Shown in pieces: positions 52,399 through 64,000 of a stretch of DNA of 64,000 nucleotides (within the stretch, counting starts at the first letter, position 1; each line of letters begins with the position of its first letter). The notes under the pieces are model-generated. The model searched no databases and was not told the origin of the DNA. It saw only the letters and a program-made list of their open reading frames with translations. This DNA comes from Amycolatopsis sp. 195334CR (GTDB taxonomy: Bacteria; Actinomycetota; Actinomycetes; Mycobacteriales; Pseudonocardiaceae), in assembly GCF_017309385.1 (NCBI RefSeq), contig NZ_JAFJMJ010000002.1, positions 2,728,001-2,792,000 on the forward strand, in the 5' to 3' direction. The position numbers were made by a program, and so were the translations under genes.

Positions 52399-52461
52399 GC
52401 CCCCGACGATACCGTAACGCAACGTTTCCAGAAACACCGTGTTACCGAATCCGAGTAGCCA

Positions 52462-52476
52462 TTGCGATTATCGCAA
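52462..52476. promoter_or_regulatory. Palindrome upstream of the XRE-TetR regulator
   Basis: TTGCGAT-T-ATCGCAA is a perfect 7-bp inverted repeat, 23 bases before the regulator's ATG. It lies in the divergent promoter region shared with the small membrane protein and is a likely autoregulatory site. A copy before the catabolic operon was not seen. Confidence 0.72.
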
Positions 52477-52498
52477 CGAGCACTTATCGTTCCCCGGC

Positions 52499-53365
52499 AT
52501 GGACGAGACCGGCGGGCTGCGGGAGCGGGTCCGCGGGCTGATCCGGGCGACCCCCGGGGCGCAGCGCGAGTTCGCCGCCGCGATCGGTCTCGACCAGACG
52601 AAGCTGTCGAAGGCGCTGGCCGGTGTCCGCCGGTTCTCCCCGCACGAACTGGTGCGGATCGCCGAGCACAGCGGGGTGACGGTCAACTGGCTGCTCAGCG
52701 GCAGCGACGAGGCCGCCACGGTGACCGCGATCCCCGCCGCCGCGGCACGGTCGACCCTGCCCGACGCGGATCCGGACACCACCGAGACCCGGCTCCGGAT
52801 CCTGGAAACCGCCTGGCGCCTGATCGCCCGGCGCGGTTACCACCAGGTCCGGATCGCCGACATCGCCGAGGCCTGCAAGACCAGCACGGCAACCATCCAC
52901 CACCACTTCCCCACCAAGGCCGCCGTGCTGAACGAAGCACTGCGCCGCAACGTGAAGCTCGCCTTCGACCGCCAGGTCGCCGAACTGCGTTCGGTGCCCG
53001 ACGCGCACCAGCGCCTGCTCCGCCTCGTGGAACTCCAGCTGCCCACCGACGGGCTGCTCCGCGACGAGTGGGCGGTCTGGCTGCAGGTCTGGCACGAAAG
53101 CGCGCTCAACCCGGGAATCCGGTCCCTGTACTGGGATTCCTACGACCGCTGGTACCGCACCATCGCCATGACCATCCGCAGTGGACAGGACCAGGGCCGG
53201 TTCCGGCGGCAGGACCCCGACCAGCTCACCGCGCAGCTGACCGCGCTGATCGACGGGCTCGGCATCCAGGTGCTCACCCGGCGGCCCGGCAGTTCCGTGG
53301 ACACCATGCGCGAGCACCTGCACCAGTTCATCGAGCACACCATTCTCCAGACCACAGTGGACTGA
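52499..53365 (+). CDS. XRE-TetR fusion regulator of the carnitine-type operon
   Basis: The 288-residue protein has two DNA-binding domains. Residues 5-65 form an XRE-like HTH ([49 protein letters not shown]). Residues 95-145 form a TetR HTH ([49 protein letters not shown]), followed by a TetR ligand domain that resembles BetI-type proteins. It starts the operon 29 bp before the cleavage enzyme gene, on the same strand. It should sense carnitine or a pathway intermediate. The ATG at 52499 is just after the palindrome. Confidence 0.88.
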
Positions 53366-53394
53366 CACCGACCAGCCGAGGGAGACATCCGGCC

Positions 53395-54288
53395 GTGAGG
53401 AAGAACGTCATCATCACCTGCGCGCTGACCGGCGCGGGCGACACCACCGGGCGCAGCGCGCACGTCCCGGTCACCCCCGAGCAGATCGCCGCCGACGCGG
53501 TGGCCGCGGCGAACGCCGGTGCCGCCGTGGTGCACATCCACGTGCGGGACCTGGAAACCAAGCAGGGCTCGCGGGACGTCTCGCTCTACCGCGAAGTGGT
53601 CGCCCGCGTCCGCGCCAGCGGGGTGGACGTGGTGCTGAACCTGACCGCGGGCATGGGCGGCGACCTGTTCATCGACCGGGAGGACCCGCTCAAACCGGTC
53701 GACGGCACCGATCTGGTCAACGGCCTGGAGCGGCTCCCCCACGTCGAAGAACTGCTCCCGGACATCTGCACGCTCGACTGCGGCTCGCTCAACTTCGGCG
53801 AGGGCAGCCAGCTCTACATCTCCACCCCCGACATGCTGCGTGCCGGGGCCGGCCGCATCCAGGAACTCGGGGTGAAGCCGGAACTGGAGATCTTCGACAC
53901 CGGGCACCTGTGGTTCGCCACCAAGATGATCGACGAGGGCCTGATCGACCCGCCGCCGCTCTTCCAGCTGTGCATGGGGATTCCCTACGGCGCCCCGGCC
54001 AATCCCGAGCTGCTCCAGACCATGGTGCACATGCTGCCGGAAGGCGCGCAGTGGGCCTCGTTCGCGATCGGCCGCGACCAGCTGCCGTGGGTCGCCCACG
54101 CCGCGCTCCTCGGCGGCCACGTGCGCGTCGGCCTGGAGGACAACCTCTACCTGGCCAAGGGCGTCAAGGCCACCAACGCGCAACTGGTGGAGCGTGCCGT
54201 GCACATCGTCGAGGATCTCGGCGGCACCGTCGCCTCCCCCGACCAGGCCCGCGAACTGCTCGGCCTGAAGGCGGTGTCCAGTGTCTGA
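53395..54288 (+). CDS. cdhC: Beta-keto acid cleavage enzyme (BKACE), CdhC-like
   Basis: The 297-residue TIM-barrel enzyme of the DUF849/BKACE family has the zinc-ligand pair in [35 protein letters not shown] and the C-terminal [15 protein letters not shown]. Family members condense a beta-keto acid with acetyl-CoA to give a new CoA thioester plus acetoacetate. In the carnitine pathway CdhC converts 3-dehydrocarnitine to betainyl-CoA. The neighbours are a carnitine-dehydrogenase-like and a thioesterase-like gene, in the same order as cdhCAB in Pseudomonas. GTG 53395 follows GAGGGAGA. It overlaps the next gene by 8 bp. Confidence 0.9.
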
Positions 54289-55246
54289 AGCGGCCTTCTC
54301 CCCGAATGAAGTGTCCACTGTGGCCTGTGTCGGCGCCGGTGTCATCGGCGGCGGCTGGGTCGCGCACTTCCTCGCCCGCGGTTACCGGGTGCGGGCCTGG
54401 GATCCCGCGCCCGACGCCGCCGCGAAGCTCACCCGGCTGGTGGACCGCGCCTGGCCCGCCCTGGTCGAGCTCGGCCTGGCCGACGGTGCCTCCCCGGCCA
54501 ACCTCACCGTCACCGGCACCCTGGCCGAAGCCGTCGGCGAGGCCCACTTCGTCCAGGAGAGCGCGCCGGAAAAGCTGGACCTCAAACAGAAACTGCTCGC
54601 CGACATCGACGCCGCCACCCCGCCCGGCGTGGTCATCGCCTCCTCCACCTCCGGGTACGGCATGACCGAGATGCAGGTGGCCGCGCCCGCCCCGGAACGG
54701 CTCGTGGTCGGCCACCCGTTCAACCCGCCGTACCTCATCCCACTGGTCGAGGTGGTCGGTGGCGAGCTGACCGCGGACTGGGCGGTCGAGTGGGCCGCCG
54801 AGTTCTACCGCCACGCCGGGAAATCGGTGATCACCCTGTCCCGCGAGCTGCCCGGTTTCATCGCCAACCGGCTCCAGGAGGCGATGTGGCGCGAGGCCCT
54901 GCACATGGTGGCCAACGGTGAGGCGACGGTCGAGCAGATCGATCTGTCCATCACGGACGGACCCGGCCTGCGCTGGCCGCTGCACGGGCCGTGCCTGACC
55001 TTCCACCTGGCCGGTGGTGAGGGCGGCATGGCGCACATGCTCGACCACTTCGGACCGTCGCTGAAGGCGCCGTGGACCCGGCTCGACGCCCCCGAACTCA
55101 CGCCGGAACTGCGCGACCGCATGGTCGAGGGCTGCCACGACGAAGCGGGCGACCGGTCCATCGCCGACCTCGTGCGGGAACGCGACCGGGCGATCATCGC
55201 CGTGCAGCGGGCCGTGCGCGCGGTGCGGGAGGCCGGCCGTGGCTGA
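54281..55246 (+). CDS. cdhA: L-carnitine dehydrogenase-like enzyme
   Basis: The 321-residue NAD-dependent dehydrogenase of the 3-hydroxyacyl-CoA dehydrogenase family has the nucleotide loop GAGVIGGGW (18-26). Catalytic-region motifs are [31 protein letters not shown] with His/Glu, and [21 protein letters not shown]. It matches single-domain carnitine 3-dehydrogenases (about 320 residues), which oxidise L-carnitine to 3-dehydrocarnitine. GTG 54281 overlaps the upstream gene by 8 bp, as does its own end with the thioesterase, giving tight translational coupling. The substrate is inferred from the triad. Confidence 0.88.
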
Positions 55247-55673
55247 GCCGTTCGAATACTCCGACACCGTCCGCGAGGAGTGGATCGACTACAACGGGCA
55301 CCTGAGCGAGCCCTACTACGTGCTGGTCTTCGGGGACGCCACCACCGCGATGATGGACGCGGTCGGCCTCGACCCCGCCTACCGCGGCAGCACCGGCTGC
55401 TCGCTGTACACAGTGGAGGCTCACGTCCGCTACCTCCGCGAGGTCAAGCTCGGCGCGGAACTGCGCGTGCGCACCTCGATCATCTCCGCCGGGCCCAAGA
55501 AACTGCGCTTCTGCCACGAAATGCACGTCGGTGGCGGGCTGGTCGCCACCGAGGAACTGCTCGGCCTGCACGTCGGCGAGCACGGCACCACCCCGTTCCC
55601 GGCGCACATCTTCGAACGGCTCAGACAGCTGGAGAGCCCGGCGCCCGGCTACGCGGGGCGTGCCATTTCCTGA
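55239..55673 (+). CDS. cdhB: 4HBT-type thioesterase, betainyl-CoA hydrolase-like
   Basis: The 144-residue hotdog protein has the 4-hydroxybenzoyl-CoA thioesterase motif EEWIDYNGHLSEPYYVLVFGDAT, with the catalytic Asp in DYNGH. AHVRYLREVKLGAELRVRTSIISAGPKKLRFCHEMH follows. In the cdhCAB-type pathway it would hydrolyse betainyl-CoA to glycine betaine. It overlaps the dehydrogenase by 8 bp. The importer genes begin 41 bp later. The three enzymes together would turn L-carnitine into betaine. Confidence 0.87.
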   Translation: MAEPFEYSDTVREEWIDYNGHLSEPYYVLVFGDATTAMMDAVGLDPAYRGSTGCSLYTVEAHVRYLREVKLGAELRVRTSIISAGPKKLRFCHEMHVGGGLVATEELLGLHVGEHGTTPFPAHIFERLRQLESPAPGYAGRAIS

Positions 55674-55714
55674 TCCCGAACCCCACCTACCTCCCCGAAC
55701 CGGAAGTCCCCGTC

Positions 55715-57271
55715 ATGCCAGGCACCTTCACCAGACGGCAGTTCCTCGCCGCCGGAGCCGGGACCGCCGCACTCGGCCTGGTCCCGGCGCTGTCCGGCTG
55801 CTCCGGCGGCCGCGCCACCGCCGCGGCCCCCACCGGCCCGCCGAAACGCGGCGGCACGCTCCGGGTCGGGGTCACCGGCGGGGGCGCGGCCGACACGCTC
55901 GACCCGCACATCCCGGCCACGAACCCCGACATCGCCCGCACCGTCAACCTGTTCGAGCCGCTGCTGCACCGCAACCACGACTACCAGCTGGAAATGCTGG
56001 TGGCCGAGTCGCTGACCCCGTCGGCCGACGCCCGCACGTGGACGGCCGTGCTCCGCGCCGGGGTGCGGTTCCACGACGGCAGGCCGGTCACCCCGGCCGA
56101 CGTGGTGGCCACGTTCGCCAGGGTGCTGGACCCGCAGGACCCCAAGAGCGGCGCGGCCAGCCTGAGCATGCTCGGCGAGGTCGTGCCCACCGGCGACCGC
56201 ACGGTGGAGTTCCGGCTGACCGAGCCCTCGCCCGGCTTCGACGACTACCTCGGCCAGTACATGCTCGGCATCGTGCCGTCGGGGTTCGATCCGGCGAACC
56301 CGGTCGGCACCGGCCCGTTCCGGCTGGAGTCGTTCACCCCCGGGCAGCAGAGCGCCTTCGTCCGCAACGAGCACTACTGGCGGCCCGGCGAGCCGTACCT
56401 GGACCGCCTGGTGCTGATCAACTTCACCGAGGACGACGCCCGCATCAACGCGCTGCTGTCCTCCCAGGTGGACGCGATCGACCAGGTTCCGGTCGGGCTG
56501 ATCGACGTGCTCGCCTCGGACGAGCGCATCCGGGTGCTGCGGTCGGAGACCGGGACCTGGCTGCCGTTCACCATGCGGGTGGACCGGCCGCCGTTCGACG
56601 ACGCCCGGGTGCGCCAGGCCTTCCGGCTGGTGGTGGACCGCGAGCAGATGATCAACCAGGTGCTCAGCGGCCAGGGCCGGGTGGGCAACGACCTGTACGC
56701 CCCGTTCGACCCGGCCTACGCCGCGGACCTGCCGCAGCGCCGCCGCGACGTCGAGGGGGCGCGGCGGCTGCTGGCCGAGGCGGGCCACGCGAACCTGACC
56801 GTGGAGCTGGTGACCGCGCCGATCCAGGCCGGGGCGGTGGAGGCCGCCCAGGTGTTCCAGCGGCAGGCCGCCGACGCCGGGATCACGGTGAACCTGCGGC
56901 GCGTGGACACCACCACCTTCTTCGGCGACGACTACCTGTCCTGGGATTTCGCGCAGTCCTTCTGGTACACGCGCAACTACCTGCCGCAGGTCGCCTCCGG
57001 CGCGGTGCCCACCGCCCCGTTCAACGAGACCCACTGGGCGGACCCGGAGTTCCTCGACCTGATCGCCCGCGCGCGGTCCACTGTGGACACGAACGAGCGG
57101 AACGCGCTGCTGCGGCAGGCGCAGCGGATCGAGTACGAGCGCGGCGGCAACATCGTCTGGGGCTTCGTCGACCAGGTCGACGCGCACCAGGTCTACGTCG
57201 CGGGACTGGTGCCCGACCGCACCGGGATCTCGCTGAGCGGTTACCAGTTCCGGCAAGCCTGGCTGGGCTGA
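55715..57271 (+). CDS. Oligopeptide-type ABC substrate-binding lipoprotein, Tat-exported
   Basis: The 518-residue family 5 solute-binding protein has the signal TRRQFLAAGAGTAALGLVP with a twin-arginine motif and lipobox LSGC (near residue 29). The mature part starts PKRGGTLRVGVTGGGAADTLDPH. Family features include LTPSADARTWTAVLRAGVRFHDGRPVTPADVVATF, VGTGPFRLESFTPGQ and DDARINALLSSQVDAI. It likely feeds the adjoining permeases and ATPase. Location behind the carnitine-type genes suggests it takes up carnitine, an acyl-carnitine or a related quaternary amine, although this family usually binds peptides or nickel. Confidence 0.9.
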   Translation: MPGTFTRRQFLAAGAGTAALGLVPALSGCSGGRATAAAPTGPPKRGGTLRVGVTGGGAADTLDPHIPATNPDIARTVNLFEPLLHRNHDYQLEMLVAESLTPSADARTWTAVLRAGVRFHDGRPVTPADVVATFARVLDPQDPKSGAASLSMLGEVVPTGDRTVEFRLTEPSPGFDDYLGQYMLGIVPSGFDPANPVGTGPFRLESFTPGQQSAFVRNEHYWRPGEPYLDRLVLINFTEDDARINALLSSQVDAIDQVPVGLIDVLASDERIRVLRSETGTWLPFTMRVDRPPFDDARVRQAFRLVVDREQMINQVLSGQGRVGNDLYAPFDPAYAADLPQRRRDVEGARRLLAEAGHANLTVELVTAPIQAGAVEAAQVFQRQAADAGITVNLRRVDTTTFFGDDYLSWDFAQSFWYTRNYLPQVASGAVPTAPFNETHWADPEFLDLIARARSTVDTNERNALLRQAQRIEYERGGNIVWGFVDQVDAHQVYVAGLVPDRTGISLSGYQFRQAWLG

Positions 57272-57295
57272 CCGGCCCGAGGAGGTGTGCACGAG

Positions 57296-58258
57296 ATGCG
57301 AAGGCTCATTCTCCGGCGCGTGCTGATCAGCCTGGCGGTGCTGTGGCTGGTCACGCTGCTGGTGTTCCTGGCGACGCTGCTGCTGCCGGGCGACCCGGCG
57401 CGGGCGATCCTCGGCCAGCAGGCCACCCCGGAGCGGATCGCCGCACTGCAGGCCCAGCTCGGCCTGGACCAGCCGGTGTGGCAACGGTACCTGAGCTGGC
57501 TGGGCGGGGTGGTCACCGGCGACCTGGGCACCTCGGCGGCCACCCAGGGCCCGGTCACCGCACTGCTGGCCGACCGGATCGCCGCGTCCGGGGTGCTGCT
57601 GGTCGCCGCCGCGGTGCTCAGCGCCCCGATCGGACTGGCGCTGGGCACCTGGTCGGCGTTGCGCCGCGGCCGGGGCGCCGACCACGCGGTGTCCGGGGTC
57701 AGCCTGGTGATCGCCGCGCTGCCCGAGTTCGTCATCGGCGTGGCGCTGATCGTGCTGCTGTCCACCACGGTGTTCCCGGTGCTGCCCTCGGTCACCCTGG
57801 CCGCGCCGGGCGAGGCGGTGTGGGCGCGGCCGGTGCAGCTGGTGCTGCCGGTGGCCACGCTGGTGCTGGTGGTCACGCCGTACATCACCCGGATGATGCG
57901 GGCGACCATGATCGACGTGCTGGACAGCGGGTACGTGGAGATGGCCAGGCTCAAGGGCCTGCCGGAACGCGTGGTGGTGCTGCGGCACGCGGTGCCGCAC
58001 GCGATCGGCCCGGTGGCCCAGGTGGTCGCGCTGCAGCTGGCCTGGCTGGCCGGTGGCGTGGTGGTGGTCGAGTTCCTCTTCCGCTACCCCGGCATCGGGC
58101 AGGCGCTGATCGACGCGGTGAACAACCGCGACGTCGAGGTGGTCCAGGCGATCACCCTGCTCATCGCCGCGCTGTACATCGTGGTGAACCTGCTCGCCGA
58201 CGTGGTGGGCATCCTGGCCAATCCGAAGCTCCGGACCGGACTGGGGGTGGCGGCATGA
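57296..58258 (+). CDS. ABC importer permease (DppB/OppB type)
   Basis: The 320-residue inner-membrane permease starts MRRLILRRVLISLAVLWLVTLLVFLATLLLPGDPARAILG, the first-helix pattern of DppB. The EAA-like loop that contacts the ATPase is MARLKGLPERVVVLRHAVPHAIGPV. About six membrane segments are seen. ATG 57296 follows AGGAGG at a normal distance; GTG 57287 is too close to it. It overlaps the second permease start (ATGA). Confidence 0.9.
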   Translation: MRRLILRRVLISLAVLWLVTLLVFLATLLLPGDPARAILGQQATPERIAALQAQLGLDQPVWQRYLSWLGGVVTGDLGTSAATQGPVTALLADRIAASGVLLVAAAVLSAPIGLALGTWSALRRGRGADHAVSGVSLVIAALPEFVIGVALIVLLSTTVFPVLPSVTLAAPGEAVWARPVQLVLPVATLVLVVTPYITRMMRATMIDVLDSGYVEMARLKGLPERVVVLRHAVPHAIGPVAQVVALQLAWLAGGVVVVEFLFRYPGIGQALIDAVNNRDVEVVQAITLLIAALYIVVNLLADVVGILANPKLRTGLGVAA

Positions 58259-59118
58259 CCACCGCCGTGGCGGCGAAACCGGCGACCCTGCTGCGCCGCG
58301 CCTGGGCCCAGCGCCAGGCGAAGATCGGGGTCGCGCTGACCGCGGTCGTGGTGCTCATCGCCGTGCTGGGGCCGTGGCTCGGCCCGCTTCTCACCGGGTT
58401 CGAGGCCGGGGACTTCTCCGGGAAGCCGTTCAAGCCCGACGGCGCGGCCGGCACCGACGGGCTCGGCCGGGACGTGGTCACCCGCTTCCTTGCCGGCGGC
58501 ACCTCGCTGCTGCTCTACGCGCTGCTGGCGACCGCGCTGGGCGTGGCGCTCGGGGCGGCGCTGGGCATGCTGGCCGGGTACAGCGGCGGGCGCCTGGACG
58601 GTTTCCTCATGCGCGGCAACGACGTGCTGCTGTCCTTCCCGCAGCTGGTGTTCGCGCTGCTGGCGATCGCGGTGATCGGGCCGGAGGGCTGGCTGCTGGT
58701 GCTGGTCATCGGCATCACGCACGCCTCGCGGGTGGCACGCGTGGCGCGGCAGGCGACGGTGGCCGTGGCGGGCAGCGACTACATCCGCGCGGCGGAGATG
58801 TACGCGGTACCGCGGTGGCTGATCCTGCTCCGCGAGGTGCTGCCGAACATCACCGGCCCGCTGATGGTGGAGACCGGCCTGCGGCTGACCTACTCGATCG
58901 GCTACATCGCCTCGCTGTCGTTCCTCGGCCTCGGCATCCAGCCGCCCGCGGCGGACTGGGGGCTGATGATCAACGAGAACCGCATCGCGCTGGTCGTGCA
59001 GCCGTGGGGCGTGCTGCTGCCGGTGCTGGCGATCGCGGTGCTGACCGTGGGCACCAACCTGATCACCGACTCGCTGGCCGCCGCCGCGGCCCGGCGGGAG
59101 ACCGGAGGCCCGGCATGA
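58255..59118 (+). CDS. ABC importer permease (DppC/OppC type)
   Basis: The 287-residue permease has an N-terminal helix (IGVALTAVVVLIAVLGPWLGPLL), a periplasmic segment with GTDGLGRDVVTRFLAGGTSLLL characteristic of DppC, and the cytosolic EAA loop YIRAAEMYAVPRWLILLREVLPNI. It ends with a loop after ADWGLMINENR. Its start overlaps the first permease (ATGA) and its end overlaps the ATPase gene (ATGA), so the three are translated as one unit. Confidence 0.9.
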   Translation: MTTAVAAKPATLLRRAWAQRQAKIGVALTAVVVLIAVLGPWLGPLLTGFEAGDFSGKPFKPDGAAGTDGLGRDVVTRFLAGGTSLLLYALLATALGVALGAALGMLAGYSGGRLDGFLMRGNDVLLSFPQLVFALLAIAVIGPEGWLLVLVIGITHASRVARVARQATVAVAGSDYIRAAEMYAVPRWLILLREVLPNITGPLMVETGLRLTYSIGYIASLSFLGLGIQPPAADWGLMINENRIALVVQPWGVLLPVLAIAVLTVGTNLITDSLAAAAARRETGGPA

Positions 59119-60695
59119 CCGCCACCGCTCCCCCGACCACCGCGCTGGCGGTGTCCGGCCTCGAAGTGTCCACTGTGGCCGGAGAGCCGGTGCTGCACGG
59201 GGTGTCGTACTCGATCGCCGCCGGCGAGGTGCTGGCGCTGGTCGGCGAGTCCGGCTCCGGCAAGACCACCGCGGGACTGGCCGCGCTGGGCCACTTCCGG
59301 CGGGGCCTGGCCGCGCGGGCCGGTGAAGTGCTGGTGGGCGGCGAGGTGGACCTGCTCGCACTGTCCGTGGAGGACCGCCGGAAGTTCCGTGGCAGCACGG
59401 TTTCCTACATCCCGCAGGATCCAGCGCTCTCGCTGAACCCGGGCCTGCGGGTCGGGAAGCAGATCGCCGAGGTGCTCGAGGTCCACGGGTTCGACGGCTC
59501 GATCCCGGCCCGCGTGAACGAGGTCCTGGCGGACGTGGGCCTGCCCGCGGACGAGCCGTTCCAGCGCCGGTACCCGCACCAGTTGTCCGGCGGGCAGCAG
59601 CAGCGCGTCGGCATCGCGATGGCGTTCGCCTGCCGCCCGCGGGTGGTGGTGCTCGACGAGCCGACCACCGGGCTCGACGTGCTCACCCAGGCGCTGGTGC
59701 TGGAAACCGTCGGCAGGCTGGCGGCCGAGCACGGGGTGGCGGCGCTCTACATCACCCACGACCTGGCGGTGGTCGCGGAGATCGCGACCAGGGTGGCGGT
59801 CCTGCACGAGGGCCGGATCGTGGAGTGCGGGAGCACCGCCGACGTGCTGCACCAGCCGCGGCACGCCTACACGCGGAAGCTGATCGCCGCCGTGCCCGCG
59901 CTCGCCGGCCCGGCTGGGTACTCCACTGTGGACAAACTAGCCGCCGCGCCCCTGCTGGCGGCTTCCGGCATCGAGGTGTCCTACGGGGACAAGGCGGTGC
60001 TGCGCGGGGTGGACCTCGCGGTCGAGCCGGGCGAATGCCTGATGCTGCTGGGCGAGTCGGGTTCGGGCAAGACCACGCTGTCCCAGTGCGTGGCCGGGTT
60101 GACCCCGCACCACCGCGGTTCGGTCTCGCTGGACGGCGTGGTGCTCGCGCCCGCCACCCGCTCCCGGACGGCCGAGCAGCGGGGCGCGGTGCAGTACGTG
60201 TTCCAGAGCCCGTTCTCCTCGCTGAACCCCCGGCGGACGATCGCCCGGTCGGTGGAGGTGCCGCTGGTCCACCTGACCTCGATGGACCGGGCAGAACGCC
60301 GGGAGCGGGTGGCCGAGGTGCTGGCCAGGGTGCGGCTGGACCCGGCGCTGGCGGACCGCCTCCCCGACCAGCTCAGCGGCGGCCAGCGCCAGCGGGCCGC
60401 GATCGCCAGGGCGCTGGTGACCGCGCCCCGCGTGCTGATCTGCGACGAGGTGACCTCGGCGCTGGACGTGTCAGTGCAGTCGACCATCATCGACCTGCTC
60501 GGCGAGCTGCGGACGGAACTGGGCATGGCGATGCTGTTCGTGACGCACAACATCGCACTGGCCCGGCACGTGGCCGACCGGATCGCCGTACTGCACCACG
60601 GCGAAATCGTCGAGACGGGACCGGTGGACCGGGTGCTCGACGCGCCGGAACACCCCTACACGGAGGAACTGCTGGCCAACACGCCGAGCCTGTGA
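59115..60695 (+). CDS. ABC importer ATPase, DppD-DppF fusion
   Basis: The 526-residue protein carries two complete ABC domains. Domain 1 has Walker A GESGSGKTTAGL, signature LSGGQQQRVGIAMA and Walker B VVVLDEPTTGLD. Domain 2 (from about residue 280) has GESGSGKTTLSQ, LSGGQRQRAAIARAL and VLICDEVTSALD. Each is followed by the oligopeptide-transporter C-terminal motif (RHAYTRKLIAAVPAL and EHPYTEELLANTPSL). It energises the preceding permeases. Its start overlaps the DppC-type gene. Fusion of D and F subunits is common in actinobacteria. Confidence 0.92.
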   Translation: MTATAPPTTALAVSGLEVSTVAGEPVLHGVSYSIAAGEVLALVGESGSGKTTAGLAALGHFRRGLAARAGEVLVGGEVDLLALSVEDRRKFRGSTVSYIPQDPALSLNPGLRVGKQIAEVLEVHGFDGSIPARVNEVLADVGLPADEPFQRRYPHQLSGGQQQRVGIAMAFACRPRVVVLDEPTTGLDVLTQALVLETVGRLAAEHGVAALYITHDLAVVAEIATRVAVLHEGRIVECGSTADVLHQPRHAYTRKLIAAVPALAGPAGYSTVDKLAAAPLLAASGIEVSYGDKAVLRGVDLAVEPGECLMLLGESGSGKTTLSQCVAGLTPHHRGSVSLDGVVLAPATRSRTAEQRGAVQYVFQSPFSSLNPRRTIARSVEVPLVHLTSMDRAERRERVAEVLARVRLDPALADRLPDQLSGGQRQRAAIARALVTAPRVLICDEVTSALDVSVQSTIIDLLGELRTELGMAMLFVTHNIALARHVADRIAVLHHGEIVETGPVDRVLDAPEHPYTEELLANTPSL

Positions 60696-60885: not shown

Positions 60886-60898
60886 TCTAGCCGTCTAC
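60886..60898. promoter_or_regulatory. GntR operator before the regulator gene
   Basis: TCTAGCCGTCTAC lies 16 bases before the GntR ATG. It shares the pattern TCTAG-N-CG-N-CTA with the site before the tiny-ORF/ThiF operon at 61759. It fits the TCTAGACGTCTAGA-like sites of HutC-type GntR regulators such as KorSA, and suggests autoregulation. Confidence 0.65.
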
Positions 60899-60913
60899 AG
60901 GAGCGAGGCAGAC

Positions 60914-61702
60914 ATGCTGCAGCTTGGCCAGGTGGATCGAGGAGCGGACACCCCGCCCTTCCGCCAGATCGCCGCGATGCTCATCGACGCCATCGATGAT
61001 GGCCGATTGGAGCCAGGACAGAAGCTGCCCTCCGAGGCCGCGCTGATGGAGCACTTCGGCGTGGCCCGCATGACGGTCCGGCAGGCCACGCAGGAGTTGC
61101 GCCGCCAGGGGCTGGTCGTGGCCGAACACGGGCGCGGGGTGTTCGTGCGCGCGCCCTCGCCCACCCTGCCGGTGCGGCGGGTGGCCTCCGATCGGTTCGC
61201 CCGCAAGCACCGCGACGCCGGCAAGGCGGCTTTCCTCGCCGACGCGGAGAAACTCGGCTACCAGCCGAGCGTCGACCGGATCCAGGTCCGGCGCGAAACC
61301 GCGCCGCCGCCGGTGGCCGAGCGCCTGCGCGTGGCCCCCGACGACGAGGTGGTGGTGCGCGATCGCCGCTACCTGGCCAACGGCCGTCCCATCGAGATGG
61401 CCACCTCGTACGTGCCCACGGAACTGGCCGAGGGCACGCAGATCCTCGACATCAATCCCGGCCCCGGCGGCATCTACGCCCGGTTGGAGGAACGCGGGCA
61501 CAAACTGGCCTCGTTCACCGAGGAGGTGACCGCGCGCATGCCGAACTCGCGCGAGGTGCGTGAGCTGGGCCTTCCCGAGGGTTCACCGGTGCTGACGGTG
61601 ATCCGCACGGCCTTCGACACGGATGGGGCAGTGGTGGAGGTCTGCGACATCGTCAAGGCGGCTTCGTCCTACGTCCTCGAATACGACTTTCCCGCCAAGT
61701 AA
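60914..61702 (+). CDS. GntR/HutC-family regulator with UTRA domain
   Basis: The 262-residue protein has an N-terminal GntR winged helix (PPFRQIAAMLIDAIDDGRLEPGQKLPSEAALMEHFGVARMTVRQATQELRRQGLVVAEHGRGVFV). The C-terminal UTRA ligand domain (about 95-258) has VVVRDRRYLANGRPIEMATSYVP and the ending YVLEYDFPAK. The HTH and length match HutC-type regulators. ATG 60914 follows GAGCGAGG. It is flanked by its own operator and by a matching site before the downstream tiny-ORF/ThiF operon, so it probably represses that operon until a small molecule binds the UTRA domain. Confidence 0.93.
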   Translation: MLQLGQVDRGADTPPFRQIAAMLIDAIDDGRLEPGQKLPSEAALMEHFGVARMTVRQATQELRRQGLVVAEHGRGVFVRAPSPTLPVRRVASDRFARKHRDAGKAAFLADAEKLGYQPSVDRIQVRRETAPPPVAERLRVAPDDEVVVRDRRYLANGRPIEMATSYVPTELAEGTQILDINPGPGGIYARLEERGHKLASFTEEVTARMPNSREVRELGLPEGSPVLTVIRTAFDTDGAVVEVCDIVKAASSYVLEYDFPAK

Positions 61703-61758
61703 CCGTTCTTACTCCGAACGAGTGCACCCGCATGACTCGTCCAGGCGCTAGGAACTCC

Positions 61759-61777
61759 TCTAGACGACTAGTACAGT
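61759..61777 (+). promoter_or_regulatory. Operator and -10 box of the tiny-ORF/ThiF operon
   Basis: TCTAGACGACTAG (61759-61771) is the second GntR-like site. It is followed at once by TACAGT (61772-61777), a plausible -10 box whose predicted start is the A of the ATG at 61784. The operator would occlude the promoter. No clear -35 is seen. Confidence 0.6.
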
Positions 61778-61783
61778 TCGGTC

Positions 61784-61846
61784 ATGAGGTCCCCCGGCAT
61801 GCGCACCCTTCGCCACGAAGAAGGGGAGGGAGGAGTGCCGCCATGA
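61784..61846 (+). CDS. Tiny reading frame 1 of the ThiF operon, 20 residues
   Basis: ATG 61784 to TGA 61846 encodes MRSPGMRTLRHEEGEGGVPP, placed exactly at the predicted transcription start (leaderless). Its stop overlaps the ATG of the next tiny frame (ATGA), so translation of the two would be coupled. It contains the ribosome site of the second frame. It could be a leader peptide that sets translation of the second frame, or a peptide substrate in its own right. It could also be fortuitous. Confidence 0.4.
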   Translation: MRSPGMRTLRHEEGEGGVPP

Positions 61847-61911
61847 TCGAGATTTCGATGGTGGAGCGCGAGGACGCGAAACGCCACGTGTACAGCGAGT
61901 CGAACAACTGA
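61843..61911 (+). CDS. Tiny reading frame 2, 22 residues, candidate precursor peptide ending Asn-Asn
   Basis: ATG 61843 to TGA 61911 encodes a charged peptide beginning MIEISMVEREDA and ending HVYSESNN. A very good ribosome site GGGGAGGGAGGAG lies 7-19 bases upstream. It lies 31 bases before the ThiF gene. In microcin C biosynthesis the E1-like MccB adenylates the C-terminal Asn of a seven-residue peptide; this frame also ends in Asn and lies before an MccB-like gene, though it is longer. No other small frame before the enzyme is better. Its role as precursor is inferred. Confidence 0.6.
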   Translation: MIEISMVEREDAKRHVYSESNN

Positions 61912-61942
61912 GTCGAACCACGAGGGATGAACGAGGCACAGG

Positions 61943-63040
61943 ATGCGTCTGCGGATCAAGCTGGAACACCGCCCGGTCCGGTTCTCCGACGGCGTCATCC
62001 AGATCGGCGGCGAGGTGTTCGGCATCGCCGGACGGCTGCCCGACCCGGATGGCGCGGTCTGGGCGCTCCTGGGCGTCCTCGACGGCTCGCGAACGGTGGA
62101 TCAGGTGGTCACCGACCTGATCCACCGCTTCCCCGATCGCTCGGTGCGGATGGTGCTCGACGGCATCGAGACGCTGGCCAAGGCCGGTTACCTCGAAGAC
62201 GTCGACGAGCCCGAATGCGCCGCGCTGAGCACGTGGCAGCGGGAGCGCTACGGGCGCGGCCGGGCGCTGAACCAGTGGGTGGACCGGGAATGGCGGGATT
62301 CGAGCTGGGAGTTCCAGGTCAAGCTCTCCCGCGCCAGGGTGGTCCTGATCGGGCTGGGCGGGGTGGGCAGCACCGCGGCGCTGGCACTGGCCATGTCCGG
62401 TGTGGGCAAGTTGCACTGCGTCGAGCCGGACGTGATCACGTTGTCCAACCTCAACCGCCAGATCCTCTACTCCGAGCAGGACCTGGGGCGCCGGAAGGTC
62501 GAGGTGGCGGTGGAACGGCTGCGGGCGGCGAACTCCACCATCACCGTCACCGGCGAACCCACCCGGGTCGACAGCCTGGAGGCCATCCGGGCGCTGGCCG
62601 CGGACTGCGACGTGCTGGTGGTCGGCGCCGACCGGCCGAGGGCGATCAGGTCGTGGGCCAACCGGGCCTGCCTCGCCACGGGTACTCCGTGGGTGTTCGG
62701 CGGTTACCACGGCCCCCAAGCCAGCCTGGGGCTGTACCGGCCCGGCACCGGGCCGTGCTTCGAGTGCGCGAACGCCGCCGACCGCGAGCGTGACGCGCTG
62801 CGGCCGGCGACCGGGATGTGGTTGCCCGCCGAGGAAACTCCCCAGGTGCACGCGGCGAACGCGGCCACCGCGGGCATGGTGGGCAACCTGGTGGCGCACG
62901 TGGTGATGAGCGTGCTGACCGGCGCTCCCCCGCTGCCGGTCAACTGCCAGTACGGCTACAGCCTGGCGACCATGGACCACAGCTTCATCACAAGCGTCGA
63001 GCGCCCGCACCCGCAGTGCTCGCTCTGCAACGCGGCCTGA
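61943..63040 (+). CDS. RRE-ThiF adenylating enzyme, MccB-like
   Basis: The 365-residue protein has an N-terminal winged-helix, RiPP-recognition-like part (about 20-90: GGEVFGIAGRLPDPDGAVWALLGVLDGSRTVDQVVTDL). An E1/ThiF Rossmann domain follows, with GLGGVG (137-142), EPDVITLSNLNRQ (Arg172), Asp230 in VVGAD and four zinc cysteines at 272, 275, 359 and 362. It lacks a ubiquitin-fold substrate gene nearby. The layout equals MccB of microcin C, which activates a peptide C-terminus with ATP. ATG 61943 follows GAGGCACAGG. It is likely to modify the preceding tiny peptide. Confidence 0.9.
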   Translation: MRLRIKLEHRPVRFSDGVIQIGGEVFGIAGRLPDPDGAVWALLGVLDGSRTVDQVVTDLIHRFPDRSVRMVLDGIETLAKAGYLEDVDEPECAALSTWQRERYGRGRALNQWVDREWRDSSWEFQVKLSRARVVLIGLGGVGSTAALALAMSGVGKLHCVEPDVITLSNLNRQILYSEQDLGRRKVEVAVERLRAANSTITVTGEPTRVDSLEAIRALAADCDVLVVGADRPRAIRSWANRACLATGTPWVFGGYHGPQASLGLYRPGTGPCFECANAADRERDALRPATGMWLPAEETPQVHAANAATAGMVGNLVAHVVMSVLTGAPPLPVNCQYGYSLATMDHSFITSVERPHPQCSLCNAA

Positions 63041-63043
63041 GCG

Positions 63044-63901
63044 TCATTCGCCCAACTGGCGCGAGACGCGCTGGATGAGTTGCGTCGCCTCGCGTCCAGC
63101 GAGCGCCGCGGTGTGCAGGTGGCCGAAGAGCCTCGCGTAGCTCGTCACCTCCTCGGGATCCGCGAGCGCCTGCGACCCGGTGATCATCTCGATGGTGACG
63201 GTCTCGTCGTCGTAGATGCTGAACCCGTGCAGCGGGCAGACCGGTGTCGCGGTGGTGAACGGCACGATCCGGAGGTCGACGCTGCCGAGCTCGGCGACGG
63301 CCTGCAGCCGGTCCAACTGCCCGCGTTGGGTGTCGAGGCCGCCGATCCGCGTCCACAGCGCCGCCTCCCCCAGCACGAACGCCAGGCTCCGGCCGCCCTC
63401 GTAGAGCACGGTCTGCCGCTCGATCCGCAGTGCCACCAGCCGATCGAGATCGGCGTCGGTCATCGCCCCGCCCAGGATGGCGGGTCCGGACGGCAGTGAA
63501 AGCAACTCCCGCGCGTAGGCCGGGGTCTGCATCAGGCCCGGGATCATCGCCGGGAGAAAGGTGCGGACCCGGGCCGCCCGCTGCTCACGGCTCCCGGCGA
63601 GTCGTTGCAGGGACCCCGCGCCGCCGGACTCCCTGACCACCTTCCGGAAGTTCACCTGCTCGATCCGGGCGTCGGCCAGCAGCGCCGCGACCGTGTCCCG
63701 CTGATCCAGCGCGCCCGCCGCCGTCAGCCAGTCCGTGACGTCCTGGTCGGTCGGCAACTGCGCACCGGTCTCGATCTTGGACACCCGCGATTGCGGCCAG
63801 CCCAGGTGCGCGGCGAACTGGTTGCCGGACCTCCCGGTCACCGCGCGGAGCTCACGCAGCTTCGCGGCGAGCCGGGCCCGGTCGCTTCGCGAGGCACTCA
63901 C
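63044..63901 (-). CDS. XRE regulator with DUF5753 domain
   Basis: The 285-residue protein has an N-terminal HTH (LAAKLRELRAVTGRSGNQFAAHLGWPQSRVSKIETGAQLPTDQDVTDWLTAAG). The DUF5753 ligand-type domain follows (ESGGAGSLQRLAGSREQRAARVRTFLPAMIPGLMQTPAYARELL, then LDRLVALRIERQTVLYEGG and IVPFTTATPVCPLHGFSIYDDETVTIEMITG). Such Scr1-like proteins usually pair with small DUF397 proteins and act in development or antibiotic control; no DUF397 gene is seen here. GTG 63901 follows GGAGGG; ATG 63925 is possible. It is convergent with the ThiF gene, 3 bp between stops. Confidence 0.92.
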   Translation of the reverse strand: MSASRSDRARLAAKLRELRAVTGRSGNQFAAHLGWPQSRVSKIETGAQLPTDQDVTDWLTAAGALDQRDTVAALLADARIEQVNFRKVVRESGGAGSLQRLAGSREQRAARVRTFLPAMIPGLMQTPAYARELLSLPSGPAILGGAMTDADLDRLVALRIERQTVLYEGGRSLAFVLGEAALWTRIGGLDTQRGQLDRLQAVAELGSVDLRIVPFTTATPVCPLHGFSIYDDETVTIEMITGSQALADPEEVTSYARLFGHLHTAALAGREATQLIQRVSRQLGE

Positions 63902-64000
63902 GGCAACCCTCCGCACCCTGCGCATTGCGCATAACTCGATGGTAGTACGCGAATAGAACCTGAATGGTCGATGGAACTGGCGAATAGTTTGAGAATATCC
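63902..64000. other. Promoter region of the XRE/DUF5753 gene, A/T-rich
   Basis: The last 99 bases are markedly A/T-richer than the rest of the window. They contain the octamer GCGAATAG twice (around 63949 and 63978), about one promoter width before the XRE start. This may be its operator. I see no reading frame here. Confidence 0.4.

Follow-up and report, generated by a model that had tools for sequence, protein, structure and literature searches.

In this study, we identified a compact peptide cassette at 60.9–63.9 kb of the window, by which we mean the whole 64,000-nucleotide stretch of Amycolatopsis sp. 195334CR DNA that was analysed. The cassette consists of a GntR/UTRA gene, a 22-codon frame, a gene for an enzyme in which a recognition element (RRE) of ribosomally synthesized and post-translationally modified peptides (RiPPs) is joined to a ThiF domain, and a convergent XRE-DUF5753 gene. 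Our best reading is a ThiF-like RiPP variant in an unusual pairing with two orphan regulator types, XRE-DUF5753 and NB-ARC-TPR proteins; by the family evidence, it is not a microcin C system. We give a probability of about one half to the view that it is a minimal RiPP signalling cassette, composed of a modified peptide and its paired regulator. We know of no ligands for DUF5753 regulators or for most bacterial NB-ARC-TPR proteins, and the cassette sets a single tiny peptide and a single enzyme beside these orphan regulators, making the ligand question testable. No such cassette, and no ThiF protein with DUF5753, was found in the open-licence literature searched; an earlier description elsewhere is possible. 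A published screen of RRE-ThiF fusions was directed at clusters that include both a protease and a transporter (PMC12150305; published work is cited by PMC number for the sections available). These genes are not common to the present loci, which may explain how such cassettes can be overlooked.

Eighty homologous loci were examined, and 70 were left after 10 duplicates were dropped. Sixteen distant loci (L081–L096) of one 34-locus set were left out, and among 10 further distant ones (L014–L023), L014 and L018 were inspected and none was counted. A frame of the 22-codon type precedes the enzyme gene in 54 of the 70 non-redundant loci. The first pattern search required Ser or Cys 4–9 residues from the end and yielded 53 candidates; the peptide of L110 was added by hand before the leader-only test, giving 54 in total. 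Because the first pattern was partly circular, the choice was repeated with profiles of the leader columns alone, from which leaders of at least 60% identity were left out, so that neither the Ser/Cys column nor the last residue was used in choosing. The leader-only profiles rank the same frame first in 54 of 54 loci. Scores range from 0.4 to 26.7 in these loci and from −9.7 to 0.3 in the other 16, except for L139 (8.1), which may be a distant relative. The chance value for each locus, with a floor of approximately 0.025, is weaker in L059 (0.125), L067 (0.056), and L037 (0.048).

The N-terminal half of the peptide, its leader, typically includes [VM]-I-E-[FI]. Near the end of the peptide lies a conserved column occupied by Cys (27), Ser (26), or Thr (1), preceded by Phe or Tyr in 45 of the 54 peptides, and the last residue is small without exception (Ser 17, Gly 16, Asn 11, Ala 9, and Thr 1). 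From the conserved column to the end, the core measures 5–9 residues in 53 peptides and four in one. In the window peptide, whose frame is preceded by the ribosome site GGGAGGAG, the leader covers approximately residues 1–17, the core is SESNN, and the conserved position is residue 18. The first-pass annotation had proposed to check whether a short upstream frame ending in Asn is conserved; the frame is, and the final Asn is not, although the window copy does end in Asn-Asn. In the nearest relative, G004 (pair L027/L028), the 17 residues of the leader are unchanged, and the core, CDTGS, differs at each of its five positions, with Cys in place of Ser; the enzyme is 92.6% and the GntR protein 95.4% identical to that of the window, and the downstream XRE protein only 74.5%. 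On the enzyme tree, the Ser/Cys label needs at least 12 changes (a quick method, with 16 weak forks), and branches with strong support require 6–7 of them; the label is more clustered than in shuffles (18), yet far from a single change. Among 30 close pairs, which overlap and are not independent, 41% of the core codons and 25% of the leader codons differ. Synonymous changes account for 45 of the 111 changed leader codons and 27 of the 78 changed core codons, compared with approximately 21% and 19%, respectively, expected for random single changes.

The enzyme was first read as an RRE plus a ThiF domain with the MccB layout and four zinc cysteines, and comparison with structures and profiles bears out the RRE-ThiF layout. 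MccB is its best full-length structural match; the alignment begins at residue 1 for MccB and at residue 6 for PaaA, whereas for E. coli ThiF and MoeB it begins only at approximately residue 93. The best profile match is PaaA (5ff5, 1.5e-46), with the N-terminal RRE part included. The RRE was identified by structure and by this profile, the Pfam RRE match in the window protein being below the cut-off (E 0.015). CxxC pairs lie at 272/275 and 359/362, and in an alignment of 59 sequences, C272, C275, and C359 are invariant, C362 is nearly so, and the adenylation residues are kept. A PaaA-like_N or PqqD-type domain is present in 33 of the 120 homologues listed. The occurrence of the enzyme is patchy (51 of 390 family genomes at E 1e-60), and the closest enzyme among the matches listed, at 94%, is that of A. 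lurida. The doubts attached to the initial proposal are answered by a conserved short frame, retained adenylation residues, and an N-terminal RRE, unlike in ThiF and MoeB.

The convergent XRE-DUF5753 gene, overlooked in the first-pass annotation, belongs to the conserved unit. Directly downstream, 38 of the 54 peptide loci have a gene of a STAND/TPR cluster and 14 have one of the XRE-DUF5753 cluster. L106 has another gene there, with a STAND protein one gene further on, and in L135 no gene was called there and a STAND protein lies upstream. Fifty of the 52 next-downstream regulator genes are convergent. Since the cluster labels come from single-linkage BLAST, all 52 downstream proteins were scanned against Pfam, which returned TPR_12 in 38, NB-ARC in 34, and DUF5753 with HTH_31 in 14. 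A protein of the STAND or XRE clusters lies within approximately 5 kb in all 54 peptide loci, compared with one of the 16 loci without the peptide. In the 9.9 Mb genome of the window, there are 10 matches to DUF5753 and, with 150 of 240 candidates scored, at least 53 to NB-ARC. Such a protein also lies upstream in 34 of the 54 loci, divergent in 29, and some of the upstream proteins scanned have a BTAD/SARP part, others WD40 and nSTAND1. Five downstream STAND proteins that were scanned (in L106, the second gene downstream) match AfsR without its DNA-binding part, below the cut-off. Among the solved relatives of the XRE-DUF5753 protein, there was just one weak helix-turn-helix match.

The limits of the unit are marked by shared DNA, which covers the peptide, enzyme, and downstream protein in the six pairs compared. 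The block shared by L039 and L040 ends at −321 and +3321, just around these three genes, so that both flanks differ. The left flank differs in L067/L102 (−335), the block of L027/L028 starts at −1233, just behind an ABC operon, and L106 and L108 share much of their surroundings, with an extra gene inside L106. Beyond the enzyme, STAND, and XRE clusters, no cluster of frames of at least 70 codons occurs in more than 8 of the 70 loci. DUF397 was identified in one protein of L063, whose cluster is found in five loci and not in L027; frames below 70 codons were not clustered, and small DUF397 genes may therefore have escaped.

Whether the downstream protein reads the core was approached with distance-matrix tests, with the enzyme as a control, on the 14 XRE and 38 STAND loci. 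The core covaries with the downstream protein (r 0.28, p 0.004 for XRE; r 0.18, p 0.002 for STAND). The signal lies in the C-terminal half, which holds DUF5753 or TPR: with the enzyme and the N-terminal half controlled, r is 0.39 (p 0.0002) for XRE and 0.20 (p 0.0001) for STAND. No signal was found for the N-terminal half with the C-terminal half controlled. No link with the upstream regulators was seen (p 0.28, n = 9; p 0.36, n = 25). Within the enzyme, the core covaries with the catalytic part (p 0.0001 and 0.005) and not with the RRE. The covariation is modest and weakened by the controls given below, and it is suggestive of a downstream protein that reads the core.

The conserved precursor, the fold and active site of the enzyme, the constraints on the Ser/Cys column and on the last residue, and the pairing with regulators are computed observations; from here we infer chemistry and function. 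The RRE of the ThiF-like enzyme would bind the N-terminal half of the peptide as its leader, and the enzyme, with ATP, would adenylate the C-terminal carboxylate of the small last residue. Attack by the conserved Ser or Cys, which lies 4 to 8 residues earlier, would then close a lactone or thiolactone ring of 5 to 9 residues. Ring closure between the Ser/Cys/Thr position and the small C-terminal residue agrees with both constraints, and this points to a cyclic signal peptide more than to a microcin. The ringed core may be sensed by the convergent downstream regulator, which would be XRE-DUF5753 here and in 13 relatives and an AfsR-like NB-ARC-TPR protein in most others. The upstream regulator, here the GntR protein with two operators of its own, would set expression. 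A bolder version, which we hold to be possible but somewhat doubtful, is that this actinomycete E1-like enzyme makes agr-like lactone or thiolactone pheromones, that XRE-DUF5753 and AfsR-like NB-ARC-TPR proteins are their cognate intracellular receptors, and that core and sensor domain co-diversify into pherotypes. If true, E1-made ring peptide signalling would extend to the actinomycetes, the main antibiotic producers.

Several observations weigh against this proposal. If the product is a pheromone, it must leave the cell, and the clusters of frames of at least 70 codons include no exporter common to the loci. Ser/Cys exchange would suit azolines as well; a second candidate nucleophile is present in L116, the core of L110 has only four residues, and L122 has Thr at the conserved position. 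In the covariation tests, random columns of other proteins match the signal in 1.5% (XRE) and 0.25% (STAND) of draws, and contiguous blocks give similar (XRE, 0.398 compared with 0.404) or higher values (STAND, 0.353 compared with 0.212). Divergence of the leader, too, follows that of the downstream STAND protein (p 0.024), and its link with the RRE is not significant (p 0.16 and 0.29); the STAND N-terminal half alone reaches p 0.08. In close pairs with different cores, the regulators do not change faster (ratios of 1.38 compared with 1.55 and 1.21 compared with 1.26), and in a same-locus test with both regulators, the downstream protein gave p 0.13 (nine XRE loci, not significant) and p 0.042 (23 STAND loci). 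A further 29 loci, more divergent and from other families, yielded no peptide of the window type; among them, L170 and L197 repeat L076 and L072. Ten of these divergent loci, examined by eye, have a leader resembling I-x-I/F-R-x-L-D/E-x-x-E-T, with Cys in the core in six; the sister peptides of the other four lack Cys, and three of the ten end in Glu or Met.

The initial interpretation, in which a nucleotide is put on a C-terminal Asn to give a Trojan-horse antibiotic of the microcin C type, is partly supported: the conserved precursor and the E1-like enzyme stand, whereas the microcin-C-like chemistry does not. The structural match to MccB, the adenylation residues, and the Asn-Asn end of the window peptide speak for it, but the chemistry fails on the last residue across the family, which is Asn in only 11 of 54 peptides and Ser in the nearest relative. 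No exporter or immunity gene is common to the loci, and none of the window genes scanned (52.4–63.9 kb) is mccC, mccE, or mccF, for which no profiles were run. We consider this reading very unlikely; the first-pass annotation itself had allowed that the product may differ from microcin C. Another reading is a purely regulatory upstream frame before a housekeeping ThiF with a distant partner. The frame is indeed very short and lies directly before the enzyme gene, but the residue-level conservation of the peptide and the excess of synonymous leader changes in the close pairs, together with the PaaA-like_N/PqqD-type domains and patchy occurrence of the enzyme, make this extremely improbable.

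Ser/Cys exchange is typical of azoles, whose synthesis involves a YcaO partner. YcaO genes are far from the cassette in the six genomes that were searched, the nearest at approximately 36 kb (G013), and an azoline at Ser/Cys would leave the small last residue, found in 54 of 54 peptides, unexplained. Other ThiF-type modifications would be a thiocarboxylate or amide at the C-terminus or an EnfB-like imide, the last of which would have no need of Ser/Cys; both an imide and amides are described as products of EnfB (PMC12250964). As a group, we regard these alternatives as quite unlikely. The screen cited above left out YcaO clusters because the ThiF proteins there only dock (PMC12150305). It is also rather unlikely, in our judgement, that the peptide is the effector or toxin of an NLR-like conflict module or an antibiotic module, with the STAND or XRE protein acting as control or guard and the product not being its ligand. 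FxSxx systems have been read as conflict systems in which the peptide is a toxin or signal (PMC7159879), and the HaaT and FxSxx_TPR models (NCBIfam) match all five scanned STAND proteins, more weakly than AfsR and far below their cut-offs. XRE/DUF397 pairs regulate antibiotic production (PMC10364602, PMC6262351), DUF5753/DUF397 genes also lie beside graspetides (PMC13097080), and the lack of a common exporter is in keeping with this view. However, core divergence follows that of the regulator's C-terminal half in the XRE and STAND clades alike, within the limits set by the resampling controls, and two unrelated protein types occupy the same, mostly convergent place, which is easiest to understand if both read the product. 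We prefer a signalling cassette in which the modified peptide is paired with its downstream regulator.

The features of the cassette are listed below. The first-pass annotation had described a GntR regulator with matching sites before its own gene and before the next transcription unit, and this is confirmed by Pfam and by the sites themselves: TCTAGNCGNCTA has two matches in the window against 0.02 expected, and CTAGNCGNCTA is confined to these two places in the whole genome, a third listed match being the other strand of the second site. G004 has the same operator-like pair, plus two other places. In the upstream regions of L003–L010, CTCTACATTGTAGAG-like palindromes and half-sites lie before the peptide gene where the XRE gene is divergent.

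Features of the cassette in the Amycolatopsis window
Feature	Position	Strand	Support
Operator-like site TCTAGCCGTCTA with palindromic core, 5' of the GntR gene	60886..60897	+	One of two places in the genome
GntR/UTRA (HutC-type) transcription regulator	60914..61702	+	PF00392 1.4e-21, PF07702 4.1e-28; G004 copy 95.4% identical
Second operator-like site TCTAGACGACTA, before the peptide-enzyme unit	61759..61770	+	Genome-wide motif search
22-residue precursor peptide MIEISMVEREDAKRHVYSESNN	61843..61911	+	Equivalent frame in 54/70 homologous loci
RRE + ThiF/E1-like adenylyltransferase, 365 aa, full-length MccB/PaaA fold	61943..63040	+	PF00899 1.1e-47
XRE-DUF5753 regulator, convergent, candidate receptor for the modified peptide	63044..63925	-	PF19054 4.5e-38

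Two short coupled frames had originally been proposed, of which the 22-codon frame is supported and the 20-codon frame (61784–61846) is not. In G004, its ATG is missing and there is only a TTG frame with a different N-terminus and the same end; the comparison was made in G004, with no systematic search in other loci. The genes at 52439–60695 (+), which encode TetR, BKACE, 3-hydroxyacyl-CoA-dehydrogenase-like, and thioesterase proteins and a peptide-type ABC transporter operon, lie outside the cassette, and we take them to be perhaps a carnitine-type catabolic cluster. The ABC importer operon, which ends at 60695, was considered as a cassette part and rejected, the DNA shared with G004 starting at approximately 60710. 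Two other identities were also set aside. PADLOC models of the E1-E2/BilD type match the enzyme on its ThiF part only, and the neighbours give weak or partial matches to TPR, HTH, and other models. A phage origin was considered on a match to PHROG 19840 (1.5e-36), but 80% protein coverage was reached in no phage record.

The genome of the window has a second cassette (G000 contig C1, 960038–961126; L024/L038), with an RRE-ThiF enzyme, a peptide ending in TFCTKSDG, and NB-ARC-TPR proteins on both sides. A loose pattern finds an N-terminal G-x-V-x-G-x-VVQAG-x-I-like stretch before NB-ARC in the downstream STAND proteins of 27 of the 38 loci (e.g., L038, 10188–12368 (−)); it recalls amyloid-signalling motifs, and we presume that it may be one. 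Sister precursors were seen in L164, L165, L176, L189–L195, L202, and L203, with two in tandem in L189 and L190. In the plasmid relatives L201–L203 (Streptomyces, Nocardia, and Actinacidiphila), a match to the M50 protease family follows the enzyme, above the cut-off only in Nocardia. The Nocardia and Actinacidiphila plasmid loci have a small upstream frame with the sister leader, Cys six and four residues from the end, respectively, and a final Ser.

Compared with known systems, the cassette differs from MccB and microcin C in its rarely Asn-terminated peptides and in showing no common exporter or immunity gene. It resembles PaaA and pantocin A in the profile match and the N-terminal RRE part, but the gene set is another. 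The core chemistry of pantocin takes place on internal Glu and Asn residues, and nothing in the peptide alignment corresponds to it. Agr autoinducing peptides have Cys or Ser before the C-terminus, form a ring to the C-terminal carboxylate after activation by a peptidase, and have the receptor gene alongside. The present peptides share the Ser/Cys/Thr position near the end (54 of 54), and the ring is proposed here; unlike in Agr, the activating enzyme would be an E1-like adenylyltransferase rather than a peptidase, and the proposed receptor is cytosolic. The HaaA (cyclophane) systems, whose modifying enzyme is a radical SAM protein, and the FxSxx-COOH systems likewise combine a small peptide, a modifying enzyme, and an NB-ARC-TPR protein in actinobacteria. 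The FxSxx-COOH enzyme is also a radical SAM protein (PMC7159879), and the one here is E1-like. ThiF-like RiPP enzymes adenylate a carboxylic acid, which varied nucleophiles then attack, the published cases being GrcB (thiolactone), EnfB, and IndF (Trp-Ile) (PMC12250964, PMC12150305), and MccB has been used to yield C-terminal thioesters (PMC13255007). The cassette shares the RRE-ThiF enzyme and adjoining short precursor with the GrcB (GRC), IndF, and EnfB clusters of streptococci and enterococci, in which a peptide nucleophile follows carboxylate adenylation. Transporters are present in the clusters described for GrcB, IndF, and EnfB, some of which also include peptidases or radical SAM enzymes; no gene of these kinds is common to the loci here. 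Quorum-sensing regulators are found near the GRC and Enf clusters (PMC12250964, PMC12150305), whereas the partners in the present actinomycete loci are XRE-DUF5753 or NB-ARC-TPR proteins. The bond made by GrcB links a Glu inside the peptide to a Cys at its C-terminus, and the reaction proposed here would run in reverse, from the C-terminal carboxylate to an internal Ser or Cys.

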